A stretch of 64,000 nt of DNA from Pseudomonas graminis (GTDB lineage Bacteria; Pseudomonadota; Gammaproteobacteria; Pseudomonadales; Pseudomonadaceae), in contig NZ_CP053746.1 of assembly GCF_013201545.1 (NCBI RefSeq), positions 1,279,001 through 1,343,000 of the forward strand, read 5' to 3'. Shown here piece by piece: positions 11,180 through 15,969 of this stretch. Each line of letters begins with the position of its first letter. The stretch's first letter is position 1. The notes under the pieces were generated by a model, which did no database searches, was not told where the DNA came from, and saw nothing but the letters and a program-made list of their open reading frames with translations. The translations under genes and the position numbers were made by a program.

Positions 11180-12478
11180 ATGGACGTCACTGCAACTCTG
11201 AGCCTGGGCGATCCGCTGGAACCCGCGCGCAAGGCGACTGCTGAGATGCTGCACACCCGCGAGCGCACTTACTCGCTGCCGCAGCCTTTCTACAGCGATG
11301 AGCGGCTGTTTGAAATCGACATGCAGGAAATTTTTCAGAAAGAATGGCTGATCGCGGGGATGAGCTGTGAAGTGCCGGCCAAGGGCAACTTCCTCACCCT
11401 CCAGATCGGCAAGAACCCGATCCTGGTCGTGCGCGGACCGGACGGCTCGATCAATGCGTTCCACAACGTCTGCCGCCACCGCGGTTCTCGCCTGTGCACC
11501 AAGGAAAAAGGCAAGGTTGCCAAGCTGGTCTGTCCTTACCACCAGTGGACATACGAACTCGATGGTCGCCTGCTGTATGCCGGTACCGAAATGGGTGCGG
11601 ACTTCGACATGAAGCAGTTCGGCCTCAAGCCGGTGCATTGCAAAGTGGCGGGCGGGTACATTTTCATCAGCATGGCCAGCAACCCTCCCGCCATCGACGC
11701 GTTCCTGCAGACGCTGAACCACTACATGGAACCGTACGACATGGAGAACACCAAGGTGGCGGTGCAAACCACCCTGGTCGAAAAAGCCAATTGGAAGCTG
11801 GTTCTGGAAAACAATCGCGAGTGCTACCACTGCAATGCTTCACACCCCGAACTGCTGAACACCTTGCTGGAGTGGGACGACGTCACTGACCCGCGCGCCG
11901 ACCAGGCTTTCAAGGACCACGTCGCGGCATCCGCCGCCGCCTGGGAGGCCGAAAAGATCCCGTTCGCCCACGCCAGCTTTGGCCTGCGCAACCGGATCGT
12001 GCGCATGCCGCTGCTCAAAGGCACCGTCTCGATGACGTTGGATGGCAAGCAAGGCAGCAAAAAACTGATGGGCCGCATCCAGAACCCAGACCTGGGCTCG
12101 ATGCGCATCCTGCACCTGCCCCACTCGTGGAACCACTGCATGGGCGACCACGTCATCGTATTCACCGTGTGGCCGGTCAGCGCGCAAGAAACCCTCGTTA
12201 CCACTAAATGGCTGGTGCACAAGGATGCTGTCGAAGGCGTGGACTACGACGTCGCGCGCCTGCGTGAAGTCTGGGACGCCACCAACGACCAGGACCGTCG
12301 ACTGGCCGAAGAAAACCAGCGCGGGATCAACTCAGTCGCTTACCAGCCGGGGCCGTACTCGAAAACCTATGAATTCGGCGTGGTGAATTTTATCGACTGG
12401 TACAGCGCCAAATTGCTGGAAAACATGGGCGCCGAGCCTGCTTCCTATCTGAAGGGCGTGGCGGTTAATCACGAGTAG
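11180..12478 (+). CDS. gbcA: Glycine betaine monooxygenase, Rieske oxygenase subunit
   Basis: A 432-residue aromatic-ring-hydroxylase-type oxygenase that demethylates glycine betaine to dimethylglycine, releasing formaldehyde. The Rieske 2Fe-2S ligands are C98-x-H100 and C118-x2-H121 (CRHRGSRLC, CPYHQW). The mononuclear iron histidines are in ECYHCNASHPEL (H217, H222). Length is normal for the family. It pairs with gbcB across the divergent spacer. Downstream comes no cotranscribed gene but a short REPIN and the DnaA-box array. Confidence 0.96.
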   Translation: MDVTATLSLGDPLEPARKATAEMLHTRERTYSLPQPFYSDERLFEIDMQEIFQKEWLIAGMSCEVPAKGNFLTLQIGKNPILVVRGPDGSINAFHNVCRHRGSRLCTKEKGKVAKLVCPYHQWTYELDGRLLYAGTEMGADFDMKQFGLKPVHCKVAGGYIFISMASNPPAIDAFLQTLNHYMEPYDMENTKVAVQTTLVEKANWKLVLENNRECYHCNASHPELLNTLLEWDDVTDPRADQAFKDHVAASAAAWEAEKIPFAHASFGLRNRIVRMPLLKGTVSMTLDGKQGSKKLMGRIQNPDLGSMRILHLPHSWNHCMGDHVIVFTVWPVSAQETLVTTKWLVHKDAVEGVDYDVARLREVWDATNDQDRRLAEENQRGINSVAYQPGPYSKTYEFGVVNFIDWYSAKLLENMGAEPASYLKGVAVNHE

Positions 12479-12507: not shown

Positions 12508-12568
12508 GTCGCGGGCAACCGCGCTTCTACAGACATTCGAGCTGTAGGAGCGCGCTTGCCCGCAATGC
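12508..12568. repeat. Short REPIN, CTGTAGGAGCGCGC type
   Basis: GCGGGCAACCGCGCTTCTACAG is inverted against CTGTAGGAGCGCGCTTGCCCGC around a few bases. It lies 30 bases after the gbcA stop and may act as its 3 prime stabiliser or terminator. Confidence 0.7.
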
Positions 12569-12641
12569 GTTTTGGTTGGGCGACAGGAATCGGTTCGAGG
12601 CTGGCCGTGTCCGCATGCAATCTGGCCTGCTTTGATAGCTA

Positions 12642-12677
12642 GCAAAAAAATAAATGATCATTTTTTGATCATATCAC
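12642..12677. other. AT-rich tract with paired TGATCA palindromes
   Basis: A stretch of about 36 bases that is mostly A and T, containing two TGATCA palindromes separated by five T residues. It stands 44 bases before the first TTATCCACA of the array. Its position and composition resemble an unwinding element, but nothing proves that use. Confidence 0.4.
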
Positions 12678-12720: not shown

Positions 12721-13108
12721 TTATCCACAGAAGCGCCAACAGCATATGTGTGTAAGTCTGCCGAGTGCTGTGGAAAAGCATGAAAAGCGCTCATTAAAGC
12801 TGACCAGCAGCGCGGATTAGCTCTGGATGGCTGTTATTGGTTAAATTTCGACCAGAGCTCTATACGCCCTGAATTACAAGGCCTGCAGCGAATCACGAAC
12901 ATCTTATCCACACGAACGCTCACAGACAATGTGGGTAAGAGCACGCGCCAACAGGACTGGCCTGTGGAAAAAATTCATAGTAATCCGCTAGATAGAGCGA
13001 TCAAAAATCAACCAGCCGGCTGAGAGCGACGCCAGCAAAGGGCTGGAGCAATACGCGAACAGTTTATCCACAGGCGGATCAACAGCGATTGTGGGTATGT
13101 TTCCACAG
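12721..13108. repeat. Three-fold array of inverted DnaA-box-like pairs
   Basis: TTATCCACA occurs at 12721, 12904 and 13064. In each copy a reverse box begins exactly 26 bases later: TGTGTGTAA at 12747, TGTGGGTAA at 12930, TGTGGGTAT at 13090. A further TGTGGAAAA-type box (reversed in the third copy) follows at 12769, 12963 and 13100. The copies are 183 and 160 bases apart and the sequence between the motifs is not conserved, so it is the motif layout that is repeated. No credible reading frame covers this stretch. Confidence 0.75.
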
Positions 13109-13400: not shown

Positions 13401-13919
13401 ATGACCGAAGAGCGCTACAACTACATCTTCAGTGAGTTAGTGAACGATGAAGACGACATACTCGGCCAACTGGCCTACTCGGTATATAAACGGCAAAAAA
13501 TCGAGTATATCCACGCGTTCAAAGAGAGAAACGGCACTGATCCGCTAGATTGCGATCTCGCTGCGTTTCACGATATCAGCAATAGCAGTTCGCAACTTGA
13601 AGCCTATCGAACCCAGGCGACCCGGCTGGCGACAAACTTTTTGGAGTCCTCGCTAAGTACCGAAACGGACGAGTTGGCGGCGTTTTACTCTCCCAGAGCC
13701 GCCAACGACATCCGCATGGCGCGGCCCGGGTTCTGGAAGGGAGCCGCGCAGAGCCTCGTTGGCTCGGGCTTGTTCACTTTGCTGGTTGGGTGTCTTGTGT
13801 TCTTCGCATGGAGTTTGAAACAGGGACCACGTCAGGTCATTAAGCAGGTTTTCGACGTCGTGATTGTTGATGCAGATGCCAGGAATCGAAAAATGCAACC
13901 GGATAGGCCTCAGACGTGA
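13401..13919 (+). CDS. Hypothetical single-pass membrane protein, 172 aa
   Basis: Not recognised. The start ATG follows AGGAGTGACTGCAC. Residues 1-105 are polar and acidic and probably cytoplasmic. One transmembrane segment lies at about 114-138 (GAAQSLVGSGLFTLLVGCLVFFAWSL), and a short basic tail follows. It is coupled to the 62-residue gene upstream and ends at a convergent terminator shared with the ETF genes. The small-basic plus membrane-protein layout recalls accessory or toxin-like pairs, but I have no family evidence for that. Confidence 0.65.
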   Translation: MTEERYNYIFSELVNDEDDILGQLAYSVYKRQKIEYIHAFKERNGTDPLDCDLAAFHDISNSSSQLEAYRTQATRLATNFLESSLSTETDELAAFYSPRAANDIRMARPGFWKGAAQSLVGSGLFTLLVGCLVFFAWSLKQGPRQVIKQVFDVVIVDADARNRKMQPDRPQT

Positions 13920-13955: not shown

Positions 13956-14747
13956 TCAACGAACCACCCCCTCCTCCACCAACAACTTCAAAATCGCCGC
14001 AGCACCTTCCTGAGCGCTCACTCCCTTCAGCACCTGCCCGCCACCTCCGCTCGCTTTCGCCGTTGCAGCTTTCATGCGATCAGCGCCGCTCTTCGCCTTG
14101 ATAACCTTCAAGCGTTTTGGCCGTGGCTTTGCGGGCGTCAGTTCAGCGCCGGTGAACACTTCGTCGATGACCACCTCGATCTCTTCTACATCCAGCAGAC
14201 CCCGTTGCGCCGGGCCGTATGCGCTTTGACGAGGTTTTGGTGCGGCGTTATCCACAGTCGCCAGAAACGGCAGTCGCACTTTGAGTCGGCGACGCTGACC
14301 TCGGGGGAGCGCCTGCAGCACCTGGGCGCTGCCATTGCTCATGGACTCGACCTCGGCCAGGCCCACCACGAGCGGCCAGCCGAGCGTTTCGGCCAACAAA
14401 TAGGGAAGCATGCCGGACCCTTCGCCCGTCTCGGCCTGACTGCCGGTCAGCACCAGTTGCACGCCCGACTCACGAATGTAATCCGTTAGTCCAGGCACTG
14501 CGTCCGCGCCTGGCGGCTGGGCGAGCACATGGAGTTCGTCCACGCCCATACCCAGGTAGCCACGCAAGGCGGGTTCTTCGGCATTACCCGCATGCAACAC
14601 GTGCAAGTTATCCCCAGCCAGTTGCAAGCCCAATTCAACCGCGCGGGCGTCCTGCTCGGCGCGACGCGGACGCCCTGACGTCGGGTGCGCGCCGACGGAG
14701 ACGAGGCTGATGACGTGCAGCGTGCCTTTATCCACAGAGCTCCCCAT
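13956..14747 (-). CDS. Electron transfer flavoprotein, beta-type subunit
   Basis: An ETF beta (FixA) type subunit of about 263 residues; with its alpha partner it should carry electrons from dimethylglycine or sarcosine oxidation. Family features are the N-terminal VISLVSVGAHPTSGRPRRAEQDARAVELG, the AETGEGSG-type loop and the LPRGQRRRLKVRLPFLATVD core; the Lys/Ala/Gly-rich tail is typical of this Pseudomonas sub-family. The start is uncertain. ATG 14747 overlaps the upstream stop region but has no clear ribosome site, while a GTG at 14735 has GGGGAG four bases upstream. A perfect DnaA box (14728-14736) overlaps that GTG, and another lies at 14248-14256 in the coding region. Confidence 0.85.
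   Translation of the reverse strand: MGSSVDKGTLHVISLVSVGAHPTSGRPRRAEQDARAVELGLQLAGDNLHVLHAGNAEEPALRGYLGMGVDELHVLAQPPGADAVPGLTDYIRESGVQLVLTGSQAETGEGSGMLPYLLAETLGWPLVVGLAEVESMSNGSAQVLQALPRGQRRRLKVRLPFLATVDNAAPKPRQSAYGPAQRGLLDVEEIEVVIDEVFTGAELTPAKPRPKRLKVIKAKSGADRMKAATAKASGGGGQVLKGVSAQEGAAAILKLLVEEGVVR
14248..14256 (+). promoter_or_regulatory. Perfect TTATCCACA (DnaA box) inside ETF beta gene
   Basis: Exact match to the consensus 9-mer, in coding sequence. See the cluster finding for 12721-15472. Confidence 0.6.
14728..14736 (+). promoter_or_regulatory. Perfect TTATCCACA (DnaA box) at ETF beta start
   Basis: Exact match; it overlaps the candidate GTG start codon of the ETF beta gene, so a bound protein could affect that gene. 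Confidence 0.6.
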
Positions 14748-14748
14748 T

Positions 14749-15969
14749 TCAGGCTGCATCGCGCTTCGCCCCATTTCGGTAAGTGTCGACCGCTTCCATA
14801 AGCGCTTCGAGAATGGACGAACTCTCTCCGATCACCGACAGATCAGCACGCTTGATCATGTCGCAGGTCGGGTCGAGATTGATGGCCACCACCTTGTCGC
14901 AGGCGCCGATCCCCTGCAAATGCTGGATCGCGCCGGAAATTCCGACCGCCACGTAAACCCTGGCAGTGACCCAGGTGCCCGACGCACCCACTTGGCGATC
15001 GCGCATCATGAAGCCATCGTCCACCGCCACCCGGGATGCGCCTTCAGTGGCGCCCAATGCGACGGCGGTGCGGTGAAACAGCGGCCAGTCCTTGACCCCA
15101 TTACCACCTGAAAAGATAAATTCAGCTTCAGACATGGGGATAAGTGCCGGATCGACCGCCACTGCGCCAAGGTCTTCGATGCGCGGCAAGCTGCGTGCGA
15201 CTGCTGTGGATAACTCCACGGGCAGCGCTTCATGCCGTGTTTCACTGACAGGTTCGGCACATTCCGCTTCCGCAAGAATAAGGCGTGACACGGGGCGCAA
15301 CAGGTCTTGCGCTCCAGCACCGGCGCGCCCGATGCACTGTTCGCCAGCCACTTGCCAGACTCGCGTCGACGGCCGCTCTCCCAGGCTCGCCGCAAAACGG
15401 CGTCCCAACTCTCCCCCACCGTTTCGGCTGTCGGGCAGCAACCAGTGATGCGGGTCGAACTGGTTATCCACAGCCCGCAAACCCTGCACCCGTTGCTCGG
15501 GCGAATAACCACTGAACGCACTGCCTTCCAGTATCAACAGACGATCAACGCCCGTAATATCGAACGCCGTCTCTTTGTGCTCGCCAAAAATCACCGCCAG
15601 GACAGCGCCCTCGTTGCCAGCCAGTCCATGGGCCAAGCCCAGCAGGTCTCGGTCGTGGCTGCTCAACCGGCCGCCGACCATGTCGGGGACGACAGCGACA
15701 TAAAAAGCAGGCGTTGCGATCCGATGCAGTGGTAACTGCACGTCAACAACTACGGCGCGTTTGGTCGCGCCACCTTGTTGAGCCCCGCTTCGATCAATGC
15801 GTTTGACGCCGTTGGGACCGATGAAACCGACGCCATGCATGTTTTTACGCAGGACACCGTTCGGGCCCATCCAGCTGGCTTGCGCCGGTTGCATGACAGC
15901 GTGCAGCGGATGCAGCCGGTTTCGTGCGATCCATTCAGCACGTGGGTCGCGGCGGATAATGTCGCTCAT
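14749..15969 (-). CDS. Electron transfer flavoprotein, alpha-type subunit
   Basis: A 406-residue ETF alpha (FixB) type subunit binding FAD. The C-terminal FAD domain is clear at about 325-385: GASGTWVTARVYVAVGISG, AIQHLQGI and VVAINLDPTCDMIKRADLSVIGE. The N-terminal half contains an RNRLHPLHAV...GPNGVLRKN segment that is extra relative to short housekeeping EtfA proteins. Its ATG overlaps the stop of dgcB by one base (TAATG), and its stop overlaps the start region of ETF beta, so dgcB-alpha-beta are translationally coupled. Two perfect DnaA boxes, at 15205-15213 (reverse) and 15464-15472, lie within the gene. Confidence 0.88.
   Translation of the reverse strand: MSDIIRRDPRAEWIARNRLHPLHAVMQPAQASWMGPNGVLRKNMHGVGFIGPNGVKRIDRSGAQQGGATKRAVVVDVQLPLHRIATPAFYVAVVPDMVGGRLSSHDRDLLGLAHGLAGNEGAVLAVIFGEHKETAFDITGVDRLLILEGSAFSGYSPEQRVQGLRAVDNQFDPHHWLLPDSRNGGGELGRRFAASLGERPSTRVWQVAGEQCIGRAGAGAQDLLRPVSRLILAEAECAEPVSETRHEALPVELSTAVARSLPRIEDLGAVAVDPALIPMSEAEFIFSGGNGVKDWPLFHRTAVALGATEGASRVAVDDGFMMRDRQVGASGTWVTARVYVAVGISGAIQHLQGIGACDKVVAINLDPTCDMIKRADLSVIGESSSILEALMEAVDTYRNGAKRDAA
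15205..15213 (-). promoter_or_regulatory. Perfect DnaA box (TGTGGATAA) inside ETF alpha gene
   Basis: Exact reverse complement of TTATCCACA, in coding sequence. Confidence 0.6.
15464..15472 (+). promoter_or_regulatory. Perfect TTATCCACA (DnaA box) inside ETF alpha gene
   Basis: Exact match in coding sequence. Near-matches with one change also occur at 14608-14616 (TTATCCCCA) and 15135-15143 (TGGGGATAA). Confidence 0.6.

Follow-up and report, generated by a model that had tools for sequence, protein, structure and literature searches.

The stretch of DNA analysed here (the window) comprises 64,000 nucleotides, bases 1,279,001-1,343,000 of the 5.52-Mb single-contig genome of Pseudomonas graminis. 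Within it, a non-coding array of box motifs for DnaA, the initiator protein of chromosome replication, is flanked by a Rieske oxygenase gene (11180-12478, +) and by two ETF genes on the opposite strand (Table 1). For the oxygenase gene, which Pfam places in the Rieske oxygenase family and no further, we keep the name gbcA, that of a glycine-betaine gene, from the original prediction. From the coordinates of dnaA, the array lies 328 kb from that gene. After gbcA, positions 12520-12580 hold what we take to be a REP-like sequence; it stands near the spot where a fourth, upstream unit of the array might have stood, relatives usually having four units.

Table 1. Features of the array, its neighbouring genes and related sites. 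Coordinates refer to the window unless marked as genome coordinates.
Feature	Position	Strand	Remarks
Unit 1 AT-rich palindrome GATCATTTTTTGATC	12656..12670	.	-65..-51; fits Fis consensus GnnYAnnnnnTRnnC (PMC8682772)
Unit 1 box III TTATCCACA	12721..12729	+	
Unit 1 weak box II GCGCCAACA	12733..12741	+	+12 from box III
Unit 1 box I, reversed (TGTGTGTAA on +)	12747..12755	-	+26
Accessory box TGTGGAAAA after unit 1	12769..12777	-	
Unit 2 degenerate AT-rich element GGTTAAATTTCGACC	12839..12853	.	at -65; no fit to Fis consensus
Unit 2 box III TTATCCACA	12904..12912	+	
Unit 2 weak box II ACGCTCACA	12916..12924	+	
Unit 2 box I, reversed (TGTGGGTAA on +)	12930..12938	-	
Accessory box TGTGGAAAA after unit 2	12963..12971	-	
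Unit 3 AT-rich element GATCAAAAATCAACC	12999..13013	.	at -65; no exact fit to Fis consensus
Unit 3 box III TTATCCACA	13064..13072	+	
Unit 3 weak box II GGATCAACA	13076..13084	+	
Unit 3 box I, reversed (TGTGGGTAT on +)	13090..13098	-	
Accessory box GTTTCCACA after unit 3	13099..13107	+	
172-aa ORF between array and ETF genes	13401-13919	+	without Pfam match
ETF-domain gene	13956-14774	-	ORF list and Pfam
Exact DnaA box in ETF-domain gene	14248..14256	+	exact 9-mer in 10/17 homologs
Exact DnaA box, start of ETF-domain gene	14728..14736	+	covered by only 2 homologs, kept in 2/2
ETF_alpha gene	14749-15969	-	ORF list and Pfam
Exact DnaA box in ETF_alpha gene	15205..15213	-	read through TTA leucine codon; kept in 14/16 homologs
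Exact DnaA box in ETF_alpha gene	15464..15472	+	kept in 15/15 covering homologs
dnaA	1,617,702-1,619,231	-	genome coordinates
Locus P, E. coli-type DARS core	3004347-3004381		genome coordinates (L115:3848-3882); between FKBP and DUF1232 genes

The original prediction described three copies of TTATCCACA, each followed 26 bases on by a reversed box and then by a third box, and every one of these motifs was recovered in place. Describing the motif as a pair captured only part of it: each copy is a trio, with TTATCCACA at 0 (box III), a weak forward box at a fixed +12 whose last bases are ACA (box II, matching the consensus at only 4-6 of 9 positions) and the reversed box at +26 (box I). The third, accessory box is likewise present after each unit in the window; its place is not fixed across relatives, where a trailing TGTGGAAA/TTTCCACA box is common and variable in position (23/82 units compared with 0/82 shuffled ones). 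The pattern TTATCCACA-N{16,18}-TGTG, representing the TTATCCACA-N17-TGTG pairs, had three occurrences in the window and none in 100 dinucleotide shuffles, and a search of both strands of the 64 kb for the full trio returned the same three sites only, while 20 Markov simulations of 64 kb yielded no site at all.

When its opposite strand is read, the DARS1 core of E. coli MG1655 places boxes III and II at 0 and +12 and a reversed box I at +26, which is the geometry of the window units. The MG1655 DARS2 core, also on its other strand, has the same 0/+12/+26 spacing with weak outer boxes III and I; boxes III, II and I match the consensus at 7, 9 and 8 of 9 positions in DARS1 and at 5, 9 and 6 in DARS2. 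Section 20 of PMC5742627 describes the equal core spacing of DARS1 and DARS2 and a box I opposite in direction to boxes II and III, and section 21 a head-to-head contact between I and II and the release of ADP; Table 1 of PMC11317965 places the DARS2 outer box one base over, 2 bp from box II. All three window units keep the core spacing, with box I opposing boxes II and III and standing head to head with II. An exact box II, a trait of both E. coli DARS that is not known to be defining, is absent from the window and present at a separate locus, P (Table 1). Because box II is weak and box III strong in the array and its counterparts in relatives (hereafter locus A), we refer to a 'DARS-like' variant and not to a proven DARS member.

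Trio order, spacing and orientation are thus joined by further likenesses to DARS1 and DARS2, namely an intergenic setting, the presence of more than one locus and a conserved distance from oriC (for E. coli, PMC4585315). The differences are that Pseudomonas locus A holds three to four tandem units, that the strong box is III at loci A, B and C (the latter two described below) but II in E. coli, and that the Pseudomonas units carry an AT-rich palindrome at a fixed -65. The 3-bp, head-to-tail arrangement of boxes III and II also recalls the 'double DnaA boxes' 2-3 bp apart reported by Stringer et al. 2024 (PMC11317965), to which the window units add a conserved reversed third box and a tandem arrangement. 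A scan of the fetched stretches with a single set of cut-offs matched DARS1, unit 3 of locus A and loci B, C and P; it missed the DARS2 core and window units 1 and 2. Its extra matches were two: another trio of the DARS2 region (L040:670) and, within a 15-kb stretch (L117), an unrelated site 46 kb from oriC. Given these misses and the unrelated match, the geometry is not a clean classifier. For E. coli, PMC5835720 counts 52 similarly arranged box pairs, among which two chromosomal DARS were identified.

The unit scan in relatives demanded the 0/+12/+26 arrangement, so independent support for the spacing comes from a spectrum compiled across 40 congeneric genomes, in which TTATCCACA was followed by TGTGNGTA after any spacer of 4 to 34. 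Among its 61 matches, spacer 17 accounted for 53, spacer 5 for 4 and all other spacers for 4, with one match for the reversed control; spacers 17 and 5 correspond to the distances from III to I and from II to I in the DARS core. Although the pattern did not demand it, ACAG stood at +18 in 51 of the 53 spacer-17 pairs, and it accompanied all five exact pairs found in the same permissive way in the source genome. With one mismatch allowed, the strong-III trio was found in 184/199 congeneric genomes (reversed control, 0), at one to nine copies per genome. The 15 genomes of the genus that lack it all have E. coli-type trios (at most two mismatches; control, 0).

A draw at the level of the order yielded the trio in 19/194 genomes: three of the genus, three of another genus of the family and 13 of other families. 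Most of these 13 have strong boxes at both III and II, as in TGATCCACA-AGG-TTATCCACA-GATTC-TGTGGGTA. None shares the gene neighbourhood of locus A, B or C in the fetched loci, and they therefore support the geometry only. At class level, CACA-N3-TTATCCACA-N6-GTGGRTAA was present in 100/229 genomes (control, 0). The idea that these E. coli-type matches mostly mark oriC was rejected for the 20 loci fetched, none of which matched proteins of at least 150 aa from the oriC region of the source genome.

Locus A was followed in two samples. The first comprised 20 loci fetched for their trio matches which, with the present one, gave 21 loci and 82 units: four units in 17 loci, three in three and five in one. 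The second consisted of 80 loci found via GbcA alone, of which the 78 with at least 1.2 kb downstream were used; having been picked by the protein, it is free of motif bias. Within 1.5 kb downstream of gbcA, 41/78 of these loci carried three to four trios, two carried one or two and 35 carried none, and the 1.5 kb upstream of gbcA held no trios. In 12 of the 35 the array lay farther downstream on the same strand, in three there were trios upstream on the other strand, and the remaining 20 of the 78 had no trio anywhere in the fetched stretch. Several of the 12 displaced arrays adjoin ETF, consistent with gene insertions downstream of gbcA.

Tandem units in relatives are mostly about 150-194 bases apart, in near-helical steps. 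In the first sample, unit-to-unit distances (n=60, one of 793 left out) fell at 128, 150-151, 159-161, 172-173, 182-183 and 191-192, with a circular concentration of 0.93 for a period of 10.75. The genomes are related and so are not independent samples; for the 12 distinct values the concentration is 0.83. The second sample (114 distances below 400) gave 0.94 at 10.5-10.75.

The original prediction also held that the sequence between the motifs is not conserved and that the layout, not a duplicated block, is under selection. Across relatives neither statement holds, as the units share flanking elements at fixed distances throughout the 82 units of the 21 loci: AACA at -6..-3 (81/82 units; box III itself is exact in 78/82) and an AT-rich palindrome, TTGATCATTTTTTGATCA, at -67..-50 from the trio. 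By eye, AACA is not evident at loci B and C, where similar AT-rich blocks occupy the palindrome position. In the window the palindrome is well kept at unit 1 only, which is also the one unit of three there to fit the Fis consensus (GnnYAnnnnnTRnnC, as quoted in PMC8682772); overall, 75/158 units fit it at -65, compared with 0.14% per position. Matches to the IHF consensus (at most one mismatch) occurred in 20/82 units against 7/82 in one shuffled null, a modest excess for IHF as the upstream factor; in DARS2, Fis and IHF sites adjoin the core.

Two further loci carry strong-III trios between genes in tandem. Locus B holds single trios beside a histone-deacetylase-family gene (10/10 fetched), and locus C holds trios mostly in pairs beside a YigZ-family gene (10/10 fetched). 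Distances from dnaA were compiled for 37 of the 38 complete genomes searched, among the matches listed, and for the source genome (38 in total, 28 with sizes rounded to 0.1 Mb), loci being assigned by matched sequence and place, with synteny checked on the fetched loci only. Among the matches listed, locus A stands at a median of 531 kb from oriC and points toward it in 38/38 genomes, whereas loci B (875 kb from dnaA) and C (803 kb) point away in 33/33 and 28/28; one genome (G029) is an outlier in distance. Expressed as a fraction of the genome, locus A lies about 8% from oriC, nearer to the relative place of E. coli datA (about 10%, from coordinates) than to that of DARS1 or DARS2.

Separate from these loci, most of the Pseudomonas genomes carry an E. 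coli-type core, locus P. Its inner II-I pair, TTATCCACA-N5-TGTGNRTA, was found in 177/199 genomes; like a palindrome, it matches both strands in 162 of these. A box ending in TTCACA precedes the N5 pair by 12 bases in 31/31 loci read, so the locus P trio is III-II-I with strong boxes II and I. Identity of locus P with the nrdAB promoter was considered and dropped on account of its actual neighbours (Table 1). Two genomes from a different genus of the family (L177, L178) combine a strong-II with a strong-III unit at one locus, at a distance of 113 bases. In seven genomes without the strong-III trio (L167-L173), another locus holds a pair of strong-II trios at a spacing of 508-521 bases, with a distant FKBP homolog next to it in 5/7; this pair, about 519 bases apart, was considered as a counterpart of locus A and rejected, as neither gbcA nor ETF stands beside it.

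DnaA as the putative ligand, proposed in the original prediction, is well supported by the exact boxes, the proximity to oriC, the genus-wide conservation and the protein itself. The source DnaA is identical to that of E. coli at 326/466 aligned positions and at 74/94 in domain IV, and 19 of 20 residues looked up agree, the exception being Glu21, which is Gln. The conserved residues include D269 and L290, which have been tied to DARS1 and DARS2 activity (residue roles in part from PMC5742627).

Conserved DnaA boxes in the coding sequence of the ETF genes extend the cluster (Table 1). Mean 9-mer conservation in these genes is 6-11%, and at the three well-covered boxes codon conservation ranks at the 97th-99th percentile within the gene. 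For 9-mers of the second ETF gene the 95th percentile is 0.76, so some others are equally well kept. The TTA codon is rare in Pseudomonas, and its retention is the strongest point in favour of selected boxes in the ETF genes, suggesting that selection on DnaA binding reaches into genes.

Taken on its sequence features, locus A is very likely a DnaA-binding replication-control locus. Our preferred reading, to which we give a probability of roughly 0.57, is that this non-coding tandem trio array near the ETF genes acts as a multi-unit, DARS-like locus of DnaA reactivation; a trio spacing and orientation like those of the E. coli DnaA-recharging sites suggest a little-known control station for replication timing. 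In each unit, strong box III would be bound by DnaA, which would also occupy weak box II cooperatively, head to tail at a distance of 3 bp. A DnaA molecule on reversed box I would then face the box-II protomer head to head, the arrangement proposed for E. coli DARS. By the same proposal, the I-II contact would loosen ADP and leave DnaA free to take up ATP. A nucleoid protein (Fis, judging by the consensus, or possibly IHF) on the palindrome about 58 bp upstream may bend the DNA, and the near-helical unit spacing would place successive units on roughly the same DNA face.

Among possible functions, DARS-like reactivation has the best structural support, and the main rival is the other half of the original suggestion of 'DARS or datA', a datA-like sink in which the array and the ETF-gene boxes bind much DnaA soon after initiation, titrate it or help to hydrolyse its ATP, and so prevent re-initiation. 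The density of boxes speaks for a sink: the 3 kb from the first unit contain seven exact boxes, a higher density than in any other window of that size in the genome (the maximum around oriC is six), and of the 84 exact boxes 46 are no more than 350 kb from oriC, where 10.6 would be expected. The datA-like relative position and the conserved ETF-gene boxes, which look like plain binding sites, point the same way, and an oriC-proximal enrichment of boxes is known in E. coli and read as titration in section 6 of Olivi et al. 2025 (PMC12371093). What that section describes in E. coli and Salmonella is density and not architecture. Titration needs no conserved opposed box, yet both the reversed orientation of box I and the precise spacing are conserved here; the essential boxes of datA share one direction around an IHF site (PMC5742627, section 12), whereas box I is reversed in every unit of locus A and IHF matches show only the excess given above; and no trio turned up in the datA region, in a scan imperfect enough to miss the DARS2 core too. 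While the DARS half of the suggestion thus fits the geometry and the datA half does not, we regard a sink as possible, if doubtful.

Control of the adjacent genes by DnaA or another TTATCCACA-reading factor appears quite improbable. DnaA serves several E. coli promoters as a transcription factor (PMC11317965), DARS1 and DARS2 themselves lie in promoter regions (PMC5835720), the 172-aa ORF stands downstream of the array in the window, and the B and C units sit between tandem genes. But gbcA and ETF converge on the array in all 10 of the 20 fetched relatives in which both genes were found, the 172-aa ORF is beside 0/20 of those loci, neighbours are unrelated among loci (ETF, histone-deacetylase family, YigZ family, FKBP), and it is the orientation relative to oriC that is fixed. 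The presence of several similar units per genome, some in tandem, could also suggest a dispersed repeat family or mobile element that happens to hold DnaA boxes, an explanation largely refuted by synteny (gbcA or ETF beside 19/20 fetched A loci, with B and C at their own constant neighbours) and scarcely credible given the fixed orientation and oriC distance and the low copy number across the 184 genomes. A chance cluster is refuted and its probability negligible: TTATCCACA is common near oriC in the source genome, but the shuffles and simulations gave no such array and the reversed control no match in 199 genomes.

Returning to DARS-like reactivation, a wider version of it, tentative and rather unlikely as it stands, would treat the Pseudomonas trios as one distributed set of fixed geometry in which the strong box is swapped between III and II, with locus A contributing tandem strong-III units close to oriC and locus P an E. 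coli-type strong-II core at a greater distance. Together with the near-helical phasing of the multi-unit array, this swap would modulate the nucleotide form of DnaA that is retained or let go when a given locus is copied. Such a gene-dosage timer would differ from the E. coli sites with their single cores and would be extended by the boxes kept in ETF coding sequence. The natural swap offers a ready-made test of the role of the trio geometry.

The DARS work cited here concerns E. coli and near relatives. Citing Fujimitsu 2009, PMC10380432 reports the conservation of DARS1- and DARS2-like sequences in many species of proteobacteria, which may include Pseudomonas; in the open-licence literature, none of the titles and abstract openings among the matches listed evidently concerned DARS in Pseudomonas. 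If true, a conserved multi-unit DARS-like system with fixed places and orientations around oriC would show initiation timing outside the enterics, and its loci would be direct experimental targets. A separate concentration of exact DnaA boxes was noted about 51 kb from oriC, where six lie in one 600-aa ORF (genome 1670089-1671290; L117:10090-11291).
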